NCBI GenBank assembly: GCA_017533545.1
Contig: JAFXHW010000092.1
Coordinates: forward strand, 1-6,871
Direction: 5' to 3'
DNA from: Clostridia bacterium
Lineage (GTDB): Bacteria > Bacillota_A > Clostridia > Oscillospirales > CAG-272
Length of the DNA stretch: 6,871 nt
This document shows positions 3 to 6,744 of the stretch, one piece after another. The notes beneath the pieces are model-generated. The model saw only the letters and a list, made by a program, of their open reading frames with translations. It did not search any database and was not told the DNA's origin. A program made the position numbers and the translations under genes. Numbering within the stretch: the stretch's first letter is position 1; every line of letters begins with the position of its first letter.

Positions 3-1892
3 CTGGGCGATATGAAGGATGGCAAGACCGTGCTTATCGGCGAGGGAGACCTCGATGTCGAAAAGCTGATGGGAGCGCTGTCTTCGCTTAACTACGATGG
101 CTTTATCTGCGCCGCATGGAATGAAGAGATAAGCGATGCCGACATCGTTCTGACCCATTTCACAAACTACATTTCCTCGCTCAACCGCGAGAAAAAAACA
201 TATGATCATGCATACTACAACCGCGCCAGAACGGGAACATTTGTGTGGAAAAAGTACGATGTCATCGACGCCACCTTTTCCGACGTGCTCGATACCATGG
301 CCGAGACCTATCCCGACCAGTATGCTTTCAAATATCCCACACTCGACTATACCCGTACTTATGAGCAGTTCAGACGCGACGTTGACGAATGTGCCGCCGC
401 CCTTATCTCGCTCGGAGTAAAGGCGGGCGATCACGTTGCGGTATGGGCGACGAACGTGCCCGAGTGGTATCTCACCTTCTGGGCGACTACCAAGATCGGC
501 GCTGTATTGGTTACCGTCAACACCGCATATAAGATCCACGAGATCGAGTATCTCTTAAAGCAGTCGGACACACATACACTTGTGATGATTGAATACTGCA
601 AGGACATCAACTATAAGGCTATCATTGAAGAACTCTGCCCCGAGCTGAAGACGCTCACTCCGGGCACTCCCCTTTATTCGAAGAATCTGCCCTTTTTGCG
701 CAATGTAGTAACCGTCGGATTCAATATGGACGGCTGTCTTACCTACGAGCAGATGCTTGACAGGGCCTCCCTTGTTCCTCGTGAGGAGGTGCGCCGCCGT
801 GCATCTCTTGTAAAACCCGACGACGTCTGCAATATGCAGTATACATCGGGTACCACGGGATTCCCCAAGGGTGTAATGCTCACTCACCGCAATATCGTAA
901 ACAACGGCAAGACCATAGGCGACAGAATGGATCTTTCCACTGCCGACCGCATGATGATCCAGGTGCCCATGTTCCATTGCTTCGGAATGGTGCTTTCGAT
1001 GACATCGATGATGACCCACGGCGGCACGCTCTGTCCGATCCCCTATTTCTCGCCCAAATCGTCGCTTTCCTGCGTCAACGATGAGAAGATCACCTGCTTT
1101 AACGGCGTACCCACGATGTTTATCGCCATGTTCAATCATCCCGATTTTGCCAAGACCGACTTTTCCTATATGCGTACCGGAATTATGGCGGGCGCAAACT
1201 GCCCGGCGGATCTTATGCGCCGCGCGGCCGAGGAGATGAATATGCGCGAGATAATCTCCGTTTACGGTCAGACCGAGGCATCGCCCGGATGCACCATGGG
1301 CGAGGTCAACGAGGATATTGACCATCGCGTTGAAACTGTCGGAAGCGCCTTCCCCGGAGTGGAGTGCAAGATCATCGATCCCGAAACGGGGGCCGATCTG
1401 CCCGACGGCGAGAGCGGCGAGTTCGTTGCACGCGGATTCAACATCATGAAGGGATATTACAAGATGCCCGAGGCGACTGCTCAGGCCATCGACCGTGACG
1501 GCTGGCTCCATTCGGGCGATATATGCATGAGAACGCCCGACGGATATTACAAGGTCACCGGCCGACTCAAGGATATGATCATTCGCGGAGGAGAGAACCT
1601 TTATCCGCGTGAGATCGAGGAGTTTTACCTCACAAATCCCAAGGTACGCGACGTTCAGGTCGTCGGCGTGCCCGACGAAAAGTACGGCGAGGAATGCTGT
1701 GCCTGGATAATTCTTCATAAGGGCGAGAGTGCTGACGAAAACGAGATGCGCGAATTCGGAAATGCATCTATTGCGCGTCATAAGGTTCCGAAATATTTCA
1801 TGTTCGTCAGCGAATTCCCCATGAATGCGGCAGGCAAGATTTTAAAATATAAAATGAGAGAAGAATCGGCCGAAAAATTAGGGCTGAAATAA
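3..1892 (+). CDS. AMP-forming acyl-CoA synthetase fused to the end of an isomerase-like TIM barrel (5' partial)
   Basis: This protein should activate a carboxylic acid with ATP to an acyl-adenylate and pass it to CoA in the cytoplasm. Numbering from the Met codon at 12, the ligase hallmarks are all present: phosphate loop TSGTTGFPKG (278-287), YGQTE (418-422), GWLHSGD (497-503), hinge GRLKDMIIRGGEN (517-529) and catalytic Lys609 in NAAGKILK. They resemble the fatty-acyl-CoA ligase (FACL) branch. The frame stays open to the left edge, and no ribosome binding site is visible before the Met at 12. Residues from LGDMKDG through GEGDLDVEKLM and LNYDGF to HFTNY look like the last strands of a xylose-isomerase-like TIM barrel (the HxKD...GEGD...YDGF pattern). 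I therefore infer a two-domain protein whose start and most of whose barrel lie outside the window. The Met at 12 would then be internal. The acyl substrate is unknown. The gene's last 16 codons recur twice just downstream. Confidence 0.9.
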   Translation: MGDMKDGKTVLIGEGDLDVEKLMGALSSLNYDGFICAAWNEEISDADIVLTHFTNYISSLNREKKTYDHAYYNRARTGTFVWKKYDVIDATFSDVLDTMAETYPDQYAFKYPTLDYTRTYEQFRRDVDECAAALISLGVKAGDHVAVWATNVPEWYLTFWATTKIGAVLVTVNTAYKIHEIEYLLKQSDTHTLVMIEYCKDINYKAIIEELCPELKTLTPGTPLYSKNLPFLRNVVTVGFNMDGCLTYEQMLDRASLVPREEVRRRASLVKPDDVCNMQYTSGTTGFPKGVMLTHRNIVNNGKTIGDRMDLSTADRMMIQVPMFHCFGMVLSMTSMMTHGGTLCPIPYFSPKSSLSCVNDEKITCFNGVPTMFIAMFNHPDFAKTDFSYMRTGIMAGANCPADLMRRAAEEMNMREIISVYGQTEASPGCTMGEVNEDIDHRVETVGSAFPGVECKIIDPETGADLPDGESGEFVARGFNIMKGYYKMPEATAQAIDRDGWLHSGDICMRTPDGYYKVTGRLKDMIIRGGENLYPREIEEFYLTNPKVRDVQVVGVPDEKYGEECCAWIILHKGESADENEMREFGNASIARHKVPKYFMFVSEFPMNAAGKILKYKMREESAEKLGLK

Positions 1893-2123: not shown

Positions 2124-2555
2124 ATGTATTTTGACGATCTGAAAGTTGGCATGGAGGTACAATGTGCTCCTGCCGTCATAAAAAAAGAAAAAATGGTCTC
2201 CTTTGCAAAGGATTACGACAATATACCCCTTCACACCGACGAAGAATACGCAAAAAAGACCACGTTCGGCAAGCTTATCGCGCCCGGAGTAATGTCCTTT
2301 ATGTCGGTTTGGGCAAAATATCTCGAATGTGACTTTTTCGGCGAGGAGCTTCTGGCCGGCAAATCCACAAAGATCGAATGGCTGAGACCCGTTTATGCCG
2401 ACGATATTCTGACGGGAAGGGCCAAAATTACAAGGCTTGAAAAAAGAAATGCAAAAAACGGACTTGCCGAGATAAGCATTGAAGCTTTTAATCAAAAGGG
2501 CGAGCTTGTTTTGACGGACGTGACAGAGGCCATTGTAAAATGCCGCTTGGTTTGA
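2124..2555 (+). CDS. MaoC-like (R)-specific enoyl-CoA hydratase family protein
   Basis: This 143-residue protein has the size and pattern of a single hot-dog MaoC/PhaJ-type hydratase. Members add water to trans-2-enoyl-CoA or act on related thioesters, usually as dimers in the cytoplasm. The catalytic Asp-x4-His pair is visible as Asp32 and His37 in DYDNIPLH, followed by the family's TFGKLIAPG stretch (47-55). The usual D-x-N-P-[LIV]-H is altered to D-N-I-P-L-H, with Asp, Pro and His kept. Further on, WLRPVYADDILTG matches the conserved segment that follows the hydratase helix. The ATG at 2124 has the ribosome binding site AAGGTGA (2111-2117) six bases upstream. The next gene starts 29 bases after the stop, so the two are probably co-transcribed. 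The upstream ligase gene suggests a shared CoA-thioester pathway. The substrate is unknown, and a non-catalytic hot-dog protein is possible but less likely because the catalytic pair is intact. Confidence 0.85.
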   Translation: MYFDDLKVGMEVQCAPAVIKKEKMVSFAKDYDNIPLHTDEEYAKKTTFGKLIAPGVMSFMSVWAKYLECDFFGEELLAGKSTKIEWLRPVYADDILTGRAKITRLEKRNAKNGLAEISIEAFNQKGELVLTDVTEAIVKCRLV

Positions 2556-2584: not shown

Positions 2585-4021
2585 TTGAAAAAAACGTATG
2601 TAACATCAATGCCCGACCACATTGGCGCATTTTTAAAGGCAAGCCAATGCTTTTCAACGCTCGGGATCAACATTACCCGCGTAAGCTATAACAAGGCACT
2701 TGACTGCCATACTTTGTTTATTGATGCCGAAGGAACGGCAGATCAGCTGAAAATGGCGGACACAGAGCTTGAAAGAATAGGTTATCTTCAAAACGGCGAA
2801 AGCAAAACGAGCATCGTGCTTATTGAATTTTGTCTTGAAGACAGACCGGGAAGCGTTTACGACGTGCTCGTGCTGATCAATGATTTTAATTTTAATATAT
2901 CATATATAAGCTCGCAGGAAAACGGCAGTGATTATCAGTATTTCAAGATGGGACTGTACGTTGATAATCCCGATATGGTGACCGAATTCCTCAAAGAAGC
3001 CGAAAAACTTTGCCGAGTCAGAGTCATCGATTACAACAGCTCCGAAAAGGTGTATGACAACAGTATTTTCTATAACACCTATGTTATGGGCCTTTCGCGG
3101 ACCATGGGTCTTTCGGAGGACGTAAGGCGCGAGCTTTTGGTATATGTCAATCTGGCAATGCAGACGCTGGACGATAAGGGCCTTTCGCCATACAGAACCT
3201 TTGACAGTATAAGCAGGTTTGCCGAGCTGCTCGGCAAGTCCAAGGGAGGCGGCTTCAACCCGAGGATAAGCACGCATAAAATTACCGAGGCAACGACCGT
3301 TACTCTGATCGAACCGCCCTGCGGCAGCAATACGATCATAATTAACAGCAACGGCGAAACGCTGTTTATCGATTGCGGATACGCTTGCTACCGTGAAGAG
3401 ATGCTTGAAATATTCAGGCGCATCATGCCCGATTTCGACAGCATGAAAAAACAAATACTCGTCACTCATGCCGATTTGGATCATTGCGGCTTACTGCCCG
3501 TTTTCGACGAAATCATCACCTCCCACAAAACTGCACGCTGCCTTGAAAACGAGTACCTCAAAAAGGGCGGATACCGTGAAAGCAATCCGCTTCACAAGCC
3601 CTATATAAATATCTGCAAAATATTGACATCGTACAAAGCGGTCGATCCCGAAAAGATACACGCCATGTGGAATGACACAGAGGAATCGAAGGAGCCGCTC
3701 ACACAGATCGGATTTTTTGATTTCGGCGAGCTTCATTTTGAAGTGTATGAGGGCAGAGGAGGACATCTGCCGGGCGAGATCGTTCTGATCGATTACTCAA
3801 AGCATATTGCTTTTACGGGCGATATATACATCAATCTTCACGCGCTGACTGCAGAACAGGCAGAGTACAATAAGTACGCGCCCATACTGATGACATCGGT
3901 AGATACCGATCCCTCTGTTTGTGCCGAGGAGAGAAGGGCGATAATGCAGCGGCTCGGCGTGGGACAGTGGCAGATATTCGGCTCGCACGGCTTTAAAAAG
4001 GATTATTCGGTTAACGCTTAA
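2585..4021 (+). CDS. Two ACT domains fused to a metallo-beta-lactamase-fold hydrolase, function unknown
   Basis: The protein has 478 residues. Residues 3-68 and 75-150 read as two ACT domains, small ligand-binding folds that often sense amino acids. Their ligand-site turns are PDHIG (10-14) and EDRPGS (85-90). A helical linker follows. From about 240 there is a metallo-beta-lactamase fold with first motif THADLDHCG (294-302), so metal ligands would be His295, Asp297, Asp299 and His300. It continues with His394 in GGHLPGE, Asp413 in FTGD and His468 in FGSHGF. The HxDxDH form, with Asp replacing the usual second His, is known from ComEC-type proteins and supports an active two-metal site. No signal peptide or membrane segment is seen, so the protein is probably cytoplasmic. 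It starts with TTG and follows the MaoC-like gene closely. Its bases look more A+T-rich than those of the flanking ligase genes. The domains are clear, but the reaction is not. Regulation of the hydrolase by an amino acid bound to the ACT domains is inference. Confidence 0.85.
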   Translation: MKKTYVTSMPDHIGAFLKASQCFSTLGINITRVSYNKALDCHTLFIDAEGTADQLKMADTELERIGYLQNGESKTSIVLIEFCLEDRPGSVYDVLVLINDFNFNISYISSQENGSDYQYFKMGLYVDNPDMVTEFLKEAEKLCRVRVIDYNSSEKVYDNSIFYNTYVMGLSRTMGLSEDVRRELLVYVNLAMQTLDDKGLSPYRTFDSISRFAELLGKSKGGGFNPRISTHKITEATTVTLIEPPCGSNTIIINSNGETLFIDCGYACYREEMLEIFRRIMPDFDSMKKQILVTHADLDHCGLLPVFDEIITSHKTARCLENEYLKKGGYRESNPLHKPYINICKILTSYKAVDPEKIHAMWNDTEESKEPLTQIGFFDFGELHFEVYEGRGGHLPGEIVLIDYSKHIAFTGDIYINLHALTAEQAEYNKYAPILMTSVDTDPSVCAEERRAIMQRLGVGQWQIFGSHGFKKDYSVNA

Positions 4022-4063: not shown

Positions 4064-4092
4064 TTGACAAATCAACTTTAGTGTGCTAAAAT
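4064..4092 (+). promoter_or_regulatory. Sigma-A promoter for the T-box leader
   Basis: A perfect -35 box TTGACA (4064-4069) and a -10 box TAAAAT (4087-4092) are separated by 17 bases. Transcription should start near 4099, about 20 bases before T-box Stem I. This makes the helix-turn-helix/cupin/ligase gene its own transcription unit. Confidence 0.85.
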
Positions 4093-4098
4093 GTGTAA

Positions 4099-4387
4099 AA
4101 ATTTGAATATCACAAAGAACGACTGCGATGAAGACGGTCGGAAAGTTTTACTTACAGAGAGTTGTCGGACGGTGCGAGACAATAGCGAGATTTTCCATAT
4201 GACCTATCACTTCTGAGTCGGAGGACCGAAAGCCTTGTATGAAAGGCAAGTAGACTCCTTCCGTATTGCTGCGTAAAGGCAAAGGGCTTGATTGAGTCCG
4301 GTAAGTGACGGAAAAAATTCCGTAATTTGAGTGGTACCGCGGGTTTAATACTCGTCTCAAAGAAATTTGAGGCGAGTTTTTTGTTTT
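4099..4387 (+). ncRNA. T-box riboswitch, probably isoleucine tRNA-responsive
   Basis: T-box leaders read through when an uncharged cognate tRNA binds. Stem I has base helix CGACT/AGTCG (4120-4124, 4216-4220), the GATGAAGA side of the specifier loop (4127-4134), helix GGTC/GACC (4136-4139, 4201-4204) and a distal CAGAGAG plus GGTGCGAGA region over stem TTGTC/GACAA. The specifier loop reads TATCACTTCTG. The codon ATC (4206-4208), followed by a purine and ACTTCTGAGT, fits the usual T-box pattern and indicates tRNA-Ile; TAT (Tyr) is a weaker alternative. Stem III is ACGGAA/TTCCGT (4308-4323). The T-box element GAGTGGTACCGCGGG follows. Its bulge TGGT (4332-4335) can pair with ACCA, matching an A discriminator base as in tRNA-Ile. 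The antiterminator pairs TTTGAG (4326-4331) with CTCAAA (4356-4361) and GCGGG with CTCGT. The exact transcript start is inferred from the promoter. Confidence 0.95.
4350..4387 (+). terminator. T-box-controlled intrinsic terminator
   Basis: ACTCGTCTCAAA (4350-4361) pairs with TTTGAGGCGAGT (4366-4377) over 12 base pairs with loop GAAA. Six Ts, a G and four more Ts follow. Its left arm is shared with the antiterminator, so the two structures exclude each other. In the absence of uncharged tRNA this would stop transcription before the ligase gene. Confidence 0.95.
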
Positions 4388-4443
4388 ATTCAAATCGGTA
4401 AACCATTAAACAAAATGTCATTTTTGAAAGGAGACAACTAAAA

Positions 4444-6744
4444 ATGGATTACAGTTTGAAAGATGTCGCGAGAAGAATCAAGGATCTTCGCGAAGCAAAG
4501 GGATATACTCCCGCCCAGCTTGCAAAGCTGACAGGTGTTTCGCTTGAGGATTATATGCTTTTGGAAAAGGGAGAGACCGATTTCAGCTTTACCTTTATCT
4601 ACAAGTGTGCAAAGGCCTGCGATGTTGAGGTTGTCGATCTGCTTGAGGGTCGAAGCTCCACTCTTACATCCTTCGCCGTCACCCGTAAGGGCGAGGGACT
4701 TCAGATAGTAAAAAAACACGGCGTTGTATATAACAATCTTGCGCCAAAGTTCAAGGATAAGCTTGCCGAGCCCTTCCTTGTAAAATTCCCCTATCTTGCC
4801 GAAGAGCAGAATGCTCCCATCAAGCTCAATTCGCATAACGGACAGGAATTTGACGTAATCGTCAAGGGCGCGCTCAAGGTGCAGATCGGCAATCATGTCG
4901 ACACGCTCTACGAGGGCGACTCCATCTTCTACAACAGCCTTATACCTCACGGTATGATCGCTGTCAGCGAGGGAGGCTGCGAGTTCCATGCGGTTGTTCT
5001 GAACCCGCAGGACGGCGAGTTCAGTGAGGAATATCCCGAGAAAACCTTTGTTGCCGCAAAGGCGGTTGAAAAGGAAGAGGACGCGAGCACCGTTGCCGAT
5101 GCCTTTATCACCTCGACCTATGATGAAAACGGTGTATTCAACGGAATTTCCTTCAAAAATGACGACAAATTCAATTTCGCATTCGACTGTGTCGACGAAA
5201 TTGCAAAGAAGAATCCCGACAAGCTGGCTATGATGTGGGTAGCGAACGACAAGACCGACCGCGCCTTCACTTTCGCCGATATGAAGAAATATTCGGCAAA
5301 GACTGCCAACTATTTCGAGTCTCTCGGTATCAAAAAGGGCGATACCGTCATGCTCGTTTTAAAGCGTCATTACCAGTTCTGGTTCTGCATGCTCGCGCTT
5401 CATAAGATCGGCGCTATCGCGATCCCCGCGACAAATCAGCTCGTCGAGCACGATTTTACATACAGATACAAGGCCGCACGTGTAAAGGCGATAGTCTGCA
5501 CCGCTGACGGCGAGGTATCGAACGAGGCCGAAAAGGCAGCAGCCGACTTCCCCGATATGCTCAAGATCCTCGTGGGAGGCAAAAAGGATGGCTGGTACGA
5601 CTTCAATGTTGAAATGGAGCGCTTCAGCACCCACTACTACCGCACCGAAAATACCCCGTGCGGCGACGACCCGATGCTCATGCTCTTTACCTCGGGCACA
5701 ACGGGCTATCCCCGCATCGCGACACACTCTTATAAATATGCGCTCGGACACTATCCCACAGCCAAGCATTGGCATAACGTAAATCCCAACGGACTGCACT
5801 TTACGATCTCCGATACCGGATGGGGTAAGGCACTCTGGGGCAAGCTTTACGGTCAGTGGCTTTGCGAGGCGGCTGTATTTACATACGATTTCGATCGCTT
5901 CCGTTCGGAAGACATTCTGCCGATGTTCAAAAAATACGGCATAACCACCTTCTGCGCACCTCCCACGATGTATCGCTTCTTTATCAAAGAGGATCTGTCG
6001 AAATACGACCTTTCGTCTATCCAATATGCCACGACGGCAGGAGAGGCGCTTAATCCCGAGGTCTTCAACCAGTTCAAAAAGGCAACAGGCCTCACCATCA
6101 TGGAGGGCTTTGGCCAGACCGAGACCACTCTTTCGATCGCCAATTTCGTGGGATCCACACCCAGAATCGGTTCGATGGGTAAGCCCAGCCCGCTTTACGA
6201 CGTTGTAATTCTCGATCCCGACGGAAACGAGTGCAAGACGGGTGACACCGGCGAGATCTGCATCCGCACCAAGGATAACGTTCCCTGCGGACTGTTTATC
6301 GGCTATTACCTCGACGAGGAAAAGACGAAGGAAGCATGGCACGATGGCTATTACCATACCGGCGATACCGCATCGATGGACGAGGACGGATACCTCTGGT
6401 ATGTCGGACGTATCGACGACGTTATCAAGTCGTCGGGATACCGTATCGGCCCGTTCGAGATCGAAAGCGTTATCATGGAGCTGCCCTACGTTCTCGAGTG
6501 CGCGATCACTCCCGTGCCCGATGAGGTCAGAGGTCAGATCGTCAAGGCGACTATCGTGCTTGTCAAGGGCACCGAGGGTACCGACGCGCTGAAAAAGGAG
6601 ATCCAGGAATACGTCAAGACGCACACAGCACCCTATAAGTATCCCAGAATCGTCGAGTTTGTCAGCGAGCTGCCCAAGACCATCAGCGGCAAGGTCAGAC
6701 GCGTTGAGATCCGCAAGAATGACATTGAAAAATTGAATAAGTAA
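4444..6744 (+). CDS. XRE helix-turn-helix / cupin / MACS-type AMP-forming acyl-CoA synthetase fusion
   Basis: The protein has 766 residues. Residues 5-68 form an XRE-type helix-turn-helix, with the turn around YTPAQLAKLTGVSLEDYMLLEKGE. Residues 110-190 form a cupin with likely ligands His131, Glu135 and His169 and turns GALKV and EGDSIFYNSLIPHG. From about 228 there is an AMP-forming ligase resembling medium-chain (MACS) acyl-CoA synthetases: TSGTTGYPR (416-424), GWGKALWGK, FGQTET (556-561), YHTGD ending at Asp641, GRIDDVIKSSGYRIG (655-669) and catalytic Lys750 in TISGKVRR. The usual Lys of the phosphate loop is Arg424. The enzyme should make acyl-CoA from a carboxylate, ATP and CoA. The N-terminal part resembles stand-alone HTH-cupin regulators, so it may bind DNA or only sense a ligand. 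The ATG at 4444 has AAAGGAG (4427-4433) ten bases upstream. Expression should depend on the T-box. A branched-chain acid substrate is possible from that context but is inference. Confidence 0.92.
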   Translation: MDYSLKDVARRIKDLREAKGYTPAQLAKLTGVSLEDYMLLEKGETDFSFTFIYKCAKACDVEVVDLLEGRSSTLTSFAVTRKGEGLQIVKKHGVVYNNLAPKFKDKLAEPFLVKFPYLAEEQNAPIKLNSHNGQEFDVIVKGALKVQIGNHVDTLYEGDSIFYNSLIPHGMIAVSEGGCEFHAVVLNPQDGEFSEEYPEKTFVAAKAVEKEEDASTVADAFITSTYDENGVFNGISFKNDDKFNFAFDCVDEIAKKNPDKLAMMWVANDKTDRAFTFADMKKYSAKTANYFESLGIKKGDTVMLVLKRHYQFWFCMLALHKIGAIAIPATNQLVEHDFTYRYKAARVKAIVCTADGEVSNEAEKAAADFPDMLKILVGGKKDGWYDFNVEMERFSTHYYRTENTPCGDDPMLMLFTSGTTGYPRIATHSYKYALGHYPTAKHWHNVNPNGLHFTISDTGWGKALWGKLYGQWLCEAAVFTYDFDRFRSEDILPMFKKYGITTFCAPPTMYRFFIKEDLSKYDLSSIQYATTAGEALNPEVFNQFKKATGLTIMEGFGQTETTLSIANFVGSTPRIGSMGKPSPLYDVVILDPDGNECKTGDTGEICIRTKDNVPCGLFIGYYLDEEKTKEAWHDGYYHTGDTASMDEDGYLWYVGRIDDVIKSSGYRIGPFEIESVIMELPYVLECAITPVPDEVRGQIVKATIVLVKGTEGTDALKKEIQEYVKTHTAPYKYPRIVEFVSELPKTISGKVRRVEIRKNDIEKLNK

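Follow-up and report, generated by a model that had tools for sequence, protein, structure and literature searches.

An isoleucine-type T-box precedes a predicted branched-acid:CoA ligase fusion in a Clostridia bacterium, with related Ile/Val switches in its relatives

The evidence assembled here makes it quite probable that an isoleucine-tRNA-sensing T-box controls a 2-methylbutyrate:CoA ligase, the product of which would be reductively carboxylated and transaminated to isoleucine. The T-box and the ligase gene lie in a 6,871-nucleotide stretch of DNA from a Clostridia bacterium (the window, by which the whole analysed stretch is meant). The proposed route would involve: accumulation of uncharged tRNA-Ile, which would pair with ATC and UGGU so that the antiterminator can form and transcription reaches the fusion gene; conversion of environmental 2-methylbutyrate to its CoA ester by the ligase; carboxylation of this ester to 2-keto-3-methylvalerate by a ferredoxin-dependent 2-oxoacid oxidoreductase (VOR); and transamination of the keto acid to isoleucine by IlvE. 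Switching by tRNA-Ile, 2-methylbutyrate as the substrate, the carboxylating direction of VOR and the flow of product to isoleucine are parts of this route that we infer, from support that is good and largely independent. The system also looks wider than first proposed, resembling a product-coded T-box regulon for branched-acid salvage.

The window contains four genes on the plus strand, with a leader of ~290 bases ahead of the fourth. Of 562 related stretches in species genomes, the analysis retained the best 80, which are 87-92% identical and all from MAGs; wherever a title states an origin for these it is the herbivore gut. The features of the window are:

3..1892, plus strand: 3' part of a TIM-barrel/FadD-like ligase gene, starting outside the window (Pfam; synteny in 15/80 loci)
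2124..2555, plus strand: MaoC-like dehydratase, link to the switch unproven (Pfam; near the fusion gene in 11/80 loci)
2585..4021, plus strand: ACT + metallo-beta-lactamase-fold protein, link to the switch unproven (Pfam; 17/80 loci)
4064..4092, plus strand: sigma-70-type promoter-like site, TTGACA-17 nt-TAAAAT with TG (consensus scan, 11/12; alone no proof of function)
4116..4362, plus strand: T-box leader, Stem I to antiterminator (RF00230; covariation in 40 leaders)
4206..4208, plus strand: specifier ATC, isoleucine (Rfam alignment; position; orthologue leaders)
4332..4335, plus strand: UGGU of the T-box bulge, predicted to pair with the tRNA acceptor end (position; orthologues)
4350..4377, plus strand: intrinsic terminator hairpin of 12 pairs, then a T run (terminator search; 40 leaders)
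4444..6744, plus strand: 766-aa fusion of XRE helix-turn-helix, cupin and AMP-forming acyl-CoA synthetase, Ile type with Gly461 (Pfam, NCBIfam, PDB, residue 461)

The first-pass annotation had described a full T-box with an ATC specifier, a TGGT bulge and a competing antiterminator and terminator, and at the level of sequence this description is confirmed for the leader upstream of the ligase fusion. An Rfam covariance scan with E-values matches 4116-4362 to all 219 model positions (1-219) of RF00230, at 82.7 bits and E 1.5e-18. At the gathering score the whole window gives no Rfam match (RF00230 reaches 82.7 bits where 93 are required), so a default Rfam scan of the window is silent. Several T-boxes ahead of tRNA synthetase genes in relatives (L132, L140, L147, L157) likewise fall below the gathering score, and the score of the window leader is therefore treated as a sensitivity limit. 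The leader has both the UGGN bulge and the mutually exclusive antiterminator and terminator expected of a T-box, the antiterminator fold using some of the terminator's bases. TGGT recurs in the leaders of the best 80 related loci, found by script in 74 and by eye in 5 more, one leader being truncated. The terminator search returned one terminator, compared with a mean of 0.3 in shuffled sequence. The T run behind it ends at 4387, and the open reading frame of the fusion starts at 4444, giving the 56-base spacing that had been claimed. Promoter-like sites numbered two in the scan versus 1.1 in shuffles, a count that by itself proves nothing.

Covariation was assessed on an alignment of 40 leaders, the window's and those of 39 orthologues. 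Pairing within the proposed stems holds in 95.9% of cells, compared with 31-51% for slid controls, and two-sided changes occur at 18/42 pairs (shuffled mean 6.5; 0/500 shuffles as high). This covariation rules out an artefact as the source of the T-box match. In the terminator stem pairing persists in 98.8% of cells with no two-sided changes, and this stem thus gives no covariation support; the outer stem of the antiterminator is invariant, so that covariation is absent there too.

The specifier columns of the Rfam alignment were assigned from the usual T-box layout together with calibration on other genes. Specifier calls combined an offset rule (NNN, 6 nt, GAG) with reading by eye, as the rule also proposes some spurious candidates among the family genes. 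For calibration, 81 T-boxes from 11 relative genomes were used, of which 80 were tabulated and several had no clean call under the rule; Phe and Tyr leaders of ligases or transporters require one extra base. With genes named by eye from protein starts, the rule places ATC ahead of ileS (L090, L111, L157), GTC ahead of valS (L132), CTC ahead of leuA (L149), TAC ahead of tyrS (L087, L103, L125) and TGG ahead of trpB (e.g. L117). Across the best 80 loci, ATC was called in 67 by script and in 11 more by eye, L007 and L021 being truncated, and a second script found it in 78/78 readable leaders. ATC is preceded by T (57) or C (21) and followed by A (66), C (9) or G (3). As both flanking bases vary, ATC is the sole constant triplet in the specifier loop. 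The isoleucine specificity, put forward as probable in the first-pass annotation, is upheld by the covariance alignment, which puts ATC and no other codon in the specifier position. In the excerpts available, AUC accounts for 99% of the Ile specifiers in TBDB (PMC7778990), and Wels et al. describe agreement of the specifier with verified function in every one of their cases (PMC2494555). No tRNA-Ile was seen among 30 of the 43 tRNA loci listed for relative G001.

In the fusion protein itself, the XRE helix-turn-helix, the cupin and the AMP-binding part all have matches that exceed a Pfam cut-off. The nearest PDB chain to the ligase part is 3etc, at 676 bits over residues 239-760, with the next chain at 379; we take 3etc to be the small-branched-acyl ligase of Methanosarcina acetivorans. 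The best NCBIfam match is MbcS (NF047394), at 453.9 bits over residues 247-763, and the equivalog cut-off of 850 is not reached. These two matches support a ligase acting on branched acids, as had been suggested, and the enzyme likely works like MbcS though it is not classed as MbcS. According to the part of the report consulted (PMC10026030), 2-methylbutyrate and isobutyrate are the acids that MbcS activates, and it uses butyrate and isovalerate poorly. The fused helix-turn-helix and cupin might, as a guess, let the acid or its ester exert a further level of regulation. The first-pass annotation had also set the acyl-CoA synthetase against a classic amino-acid gene. The placement of a T-box in control of an acyl-CoA synthetase stands; since this ligase probably opens a pathway of amino-acid biosynthesis, the contrast needs softening.

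An order-level sample of 295 genomes, with up to 3 candidates per genome scored, gave a fusion match at E<=1e-150 in 194. From loci among the matches listed, 142 family genes were located. A T-box of their own precedes 124 of these, with specifier ATC in 87 (one doubtful), GTA in 34 and GTC in 2, one being unreadable; 18 have no T-box of their own by motif search and cmscan. The motif search misses variants, as cmscan found T-boxes in 7/20 loci called empty, with specifier ATC as read from the alignments. In the last 5 loci cmscan found no T-box for the fusion gene, T-boxes there being ahead of the first gene, on the other strand, at the operon head, or absent. The tabulation was by script for 134/142 genes; 8 that a length filter had removed were added by hand (L258, L260, L263-L266 and L274 without their own T-box, L275 with ATC), and the specifiers of L216 (GTA) and L235 (ATC, doubtful) were read by eye. 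A class-wide sample of 29 newly fetched loci carried ATC in 28/28 readable leaders; these loci are the best-scoring matches among those listed (up to 3 candidates per genome scored) and hence close to the window.

Scattered specifiers among homologues are rejected: across the homologous fusions surveyed, the specifiers are Ile or Val according to clade and tandem position. Two fusion genes stand in tandem in 32 loci, as ATC then GTA (28), ATC then GTC (2) or ATC then none (2), so the gene with the Ile T-box is ahead of the gene with the Val T-box in 30/32 pairs. In a tree built by a quick method from 136 of 208 proteins, with the window's own clade thinned, the Val-labelled genes other than L128 form one clade (SH-aLRT 100). 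Its 43 rows comprise 35 GTA, 2 GTC, 1 ATC and 5 unlabelled, and the specifier label changes 15 times on the tree versus 54.1 when shuffled. The GTC gene of L128 is on a long branch outside the Val clade. The one clear mismatch is L146 (genome G002), where a gene inside the Val clade with Ala461 has an ATC specifier. At two loci (L243 1-190 and L248 76-320, minus strand) a second T-box is oriented away from the Ile T-box leading the first fusion gene. In L110 and in L274 (8992-11289) two adjoining genes encode the XRE/cupin part and the ligase separately, behind Val and Leu T-boxes respectively, which indicates that fusion or fission occurred within the family.

The specifier split is paralleled in the ligase at residue 461 (window numbering), which directly follows a conserved GW and which we take to line the acyl pocket. 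It is opposite the Val of GWVTG in an acetyl-CoA synthetase; the aligned position is Gly in 3etc, which has the GWGK motif of the window ligase, and Ala in 8biq. With L146 and L128 set aside, residue 461 is Gly in 74/74 Ile-type rows and Ala in 38/38 Val-type rows. With both restored, Gly461 is found in 74/75 ATC rows and Ala461 in 39/39 GTA/GTC rows, the exception to the rule being L146. Columns 54, 91, 94, 97 and 111 also differ between the types without overlap, making six with 461. The change at 461 may thus partly follow descent, and descent alone could explain much. L128 combines a GTC T-box and Ala461 with Ile-like letters at 54, 91, 94 and 111, and the unfused ligase of L110, behind its GTC T-box, likewise has Ala. 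These two cases speak for a function of residue 461. The ligase that ends the Leu T-box operon of L274 has Met there.

The carboxylation and transamination steps would require genes outside the window, and in relatives the fusion gene is often just upstream of VorDBAC (2-oxoacid:ferredoxin oxidoreductase), sometimes with an ilvE-like gene. As read by eye from protein starts among the loci listed, many fetched VorB loci carry, downstream of the fusion gene, genes for a ParA-like ATPase, for a small ferredoxin and for three oxidoreductase subunits, and some have a branched-chain aminotransferase after these. Two representatives pass their cut-offs: VorB of L291 (541.5 bits versus 399) and IlvE of L274 (511.6 bits versus 307). 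The 56 VorB places compared were the strongest listed plus G033, from matches in 172 genomes. A fusion gene lies on the same strand within 8 kb upstream in 40 of them, from 38 genomes; of the 16 places without an adjoining fusion gene, 6 are in genomes without a fusion place among the 150 listed and 10 are on other contigs. The Vor operon is itself led by a Leu T-box in L276 and by an Ile T-box in L281. In L274 a single run behind a Leu T-box comprises a LeuA-like gene, the TIM-barrel/FadD ligase, IlvE, the ParA-like ATPase, VorD, B, A and C, the XRE/cupin gene and a ligase.

Genome content follows the same direction. As raw counts that correct for neither kinship nor MAG gaps, VorB is found in 101/110 genomes with a fusion match at E<=1e-250 versus 71/185 others, and ilvC in 24/110 versus 119/185. 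Of the 11 close relatives, 10 have VorB and 3 have ilvC. The occurrence of ilvC in 24 of the 110 indicates that the salvage route is not always a replacement. We infer from these relatives that VOR and ilvE genes would be present in the window's own organism.

The remaining genes of the window offer several separate observations. In some relatives the operon of its first gene is led by a Leu (CTC) T-box, and in L274 the TIM-barrel/FadD ligase of this family follows the CTC (Leu) T-box. In 14 loci (L005, L008, L010, L016, L020, L022, L025, L032, L033, L048, L053, L056, L069, L080) a T-box-like motif is found 4.3-6.7 kb ahead of the fusion gene; the matching upstream T-box in related genomes (L081-L083, L085, L107) has specifier CTC (Leu) and stands before a LeuA-like gene. 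At 1843-2064 of the window, a 70-nt unit from the 3' end of the first gene (KYKMREESAEKLGLK region) recurs twice behind it in diverged form, at spacings of 75 and 77 and with 79% and 67% identity. With the one motif tried, this repeat was not seen in L001-L080. The ACT/metallo-beta-lactamase gene is upstream or downstream of the fusion gene in the 17/80 loci, and its product (2585-4021) is perhaps an amino-acid-sensing hydrolase.

On balance, though with less assurance than for the isoleucine route, we favour a product-coded regulon in which each paralogous acid:CoA ligase is under the T-box of the amino acid rebuilt from its acid, with the single pocket residue 461 (Gly, Ala, Met) following that choice, and which would replace or back up ordinary branched-chain synthesis in gut Clostridia. 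Ile and Val would be among the amino acids concerned, Leu probably so, and Phe perhaps where the ligase is PaaK-like. PaaK-like ligases are seen behind T-boxes read by eye as Phe (TTC) in L099, L100, L101, L109 and L113; that of L099, the only one scanned, scores 528.6 bits to TIGR02155, for which the cut-off is 646. In L112 another acyl ligase is behind a T-box reading Tyr (TAC). Such Phe and Tyr T-boxes on acyl ligases suggest the same logic for aromatic acids. A Geobacter paper, in the excerpt available, tabulates regulatory sequences and names 'iorAB-paaK' among them under tryptophan, which may be a forerunner of the aromatic case.

The main rival to the isoleucine route is lipid supply, which we consider unlikely. 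Here the ligase would make 2-methylbutyryl-CoA as primer for branched membrane fatty acids, with amino-acid synthesis not the goal, and the Ile T-box would respond since that primer is normally derived from isoleucine. MbcS, the best NCBIfam match of the ligase, does exactly this in S. aureus with 2-methylbutyrate and isobutyrate (PMC10026030, in the part consulted). The gene linkage surveyed here is nevertheless to VorDBAC and ilvE-like genes; L274 places two ligase genes, Vor and IlvE in one run behind a Leu T-box; and fusion genomes tend to be without ilvC. Less probable again is a catabolic or general ligase that draws on short-chain acids for carbon, its T-box signalling only starvation in general. 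AMP-forming ligases are often promiscuous, and the window's first gene and MaoC gene resemble fatty-acid metabolism. Against this, the specifiers are non-random, going with residue 461 and with the clade of the ligase; paired Ile and Val switches would not arise from a general signal; and switching on at amino-acid lack fits synthesis, not breakdown.

A further alternative is that the specifier is TAT (Tyr) or CAC (His) and the isoleucine link an accident of reading frame. Both triplets overlap ATC in the window loop, and UGGU is unsuited to the C73 of tRNA-His, which counts against the latter. Specifier frames of T-boxes can be ambiguous, as an excerpt of the TBDB paper notes (PMC7778990), but only ATC is constant across the 78 readable leaders, and the same offset yields the ATC/ileS, GTC/valS, CTC/leuA and TAC/tyrS pairs in relatives. 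A Tyr or His specifier is accordingly rejected on the variation of the bases flanking ATC, and we regard it as the most improbable of these alternatives.

Should the isoleucine route and its paralogues hold, gut Clostridia would be regulated consumers of branched volatile fatty acids. The long-known ability of rumen microbes to build isoleucine, valine and leucine from these acids would gain a genetic basis and a regulator, and uncultured bacteria possibly dependent on them would be easier to mark. The specifier codon would predict the substrate of a loosely annotated ligase, and the matched Ile/Val pairs make that prediction directly testable.

The system both resembles and departs from known ones. 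As an RF00230-type T-box, the leader matches all model positions and has an Ile specifier, UGGU and a competing terminator, while scoring below the gathering score. In the excerpts available, T-box surveys list tRNA synthetases, biosynthesis genes and transporters, whereas here the gene is an acid:CoA ligase (PMC3766115, PMC2494555, PMC11477304). Our literature search found no report of a T-box on this step, though earlier mention in the main T-box surveys is possible. MbcS (NF047394) is the top NCBIfam match of the window ligase, which differs in falling below 850, in its extra helix-turn-helix and cupin and in its T-box control; the 3etc match covers the ligase part only, with these two domains outside it. 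MbcS is tied to membrane lipids in S. aureus, as excerpted (PMC10026030), whereas the fusion ligase family is tied to VOR genes. The proposed chemistry is identical to rumen reductive carboxylation: from 2-methylbutyrate it is a probable isoleucine route in Methanobrevibacter ruminantium (PMC2812497), and 2-methylbutyrate, isobutyrate and isovalerate are described as the sources from which rumen cultures make Ile, Val and Leu (PMC7356843). The excerpts of these two papers do not mention an RNA switch, whereas here the T-box of the product amino acid is placed on the ligase.
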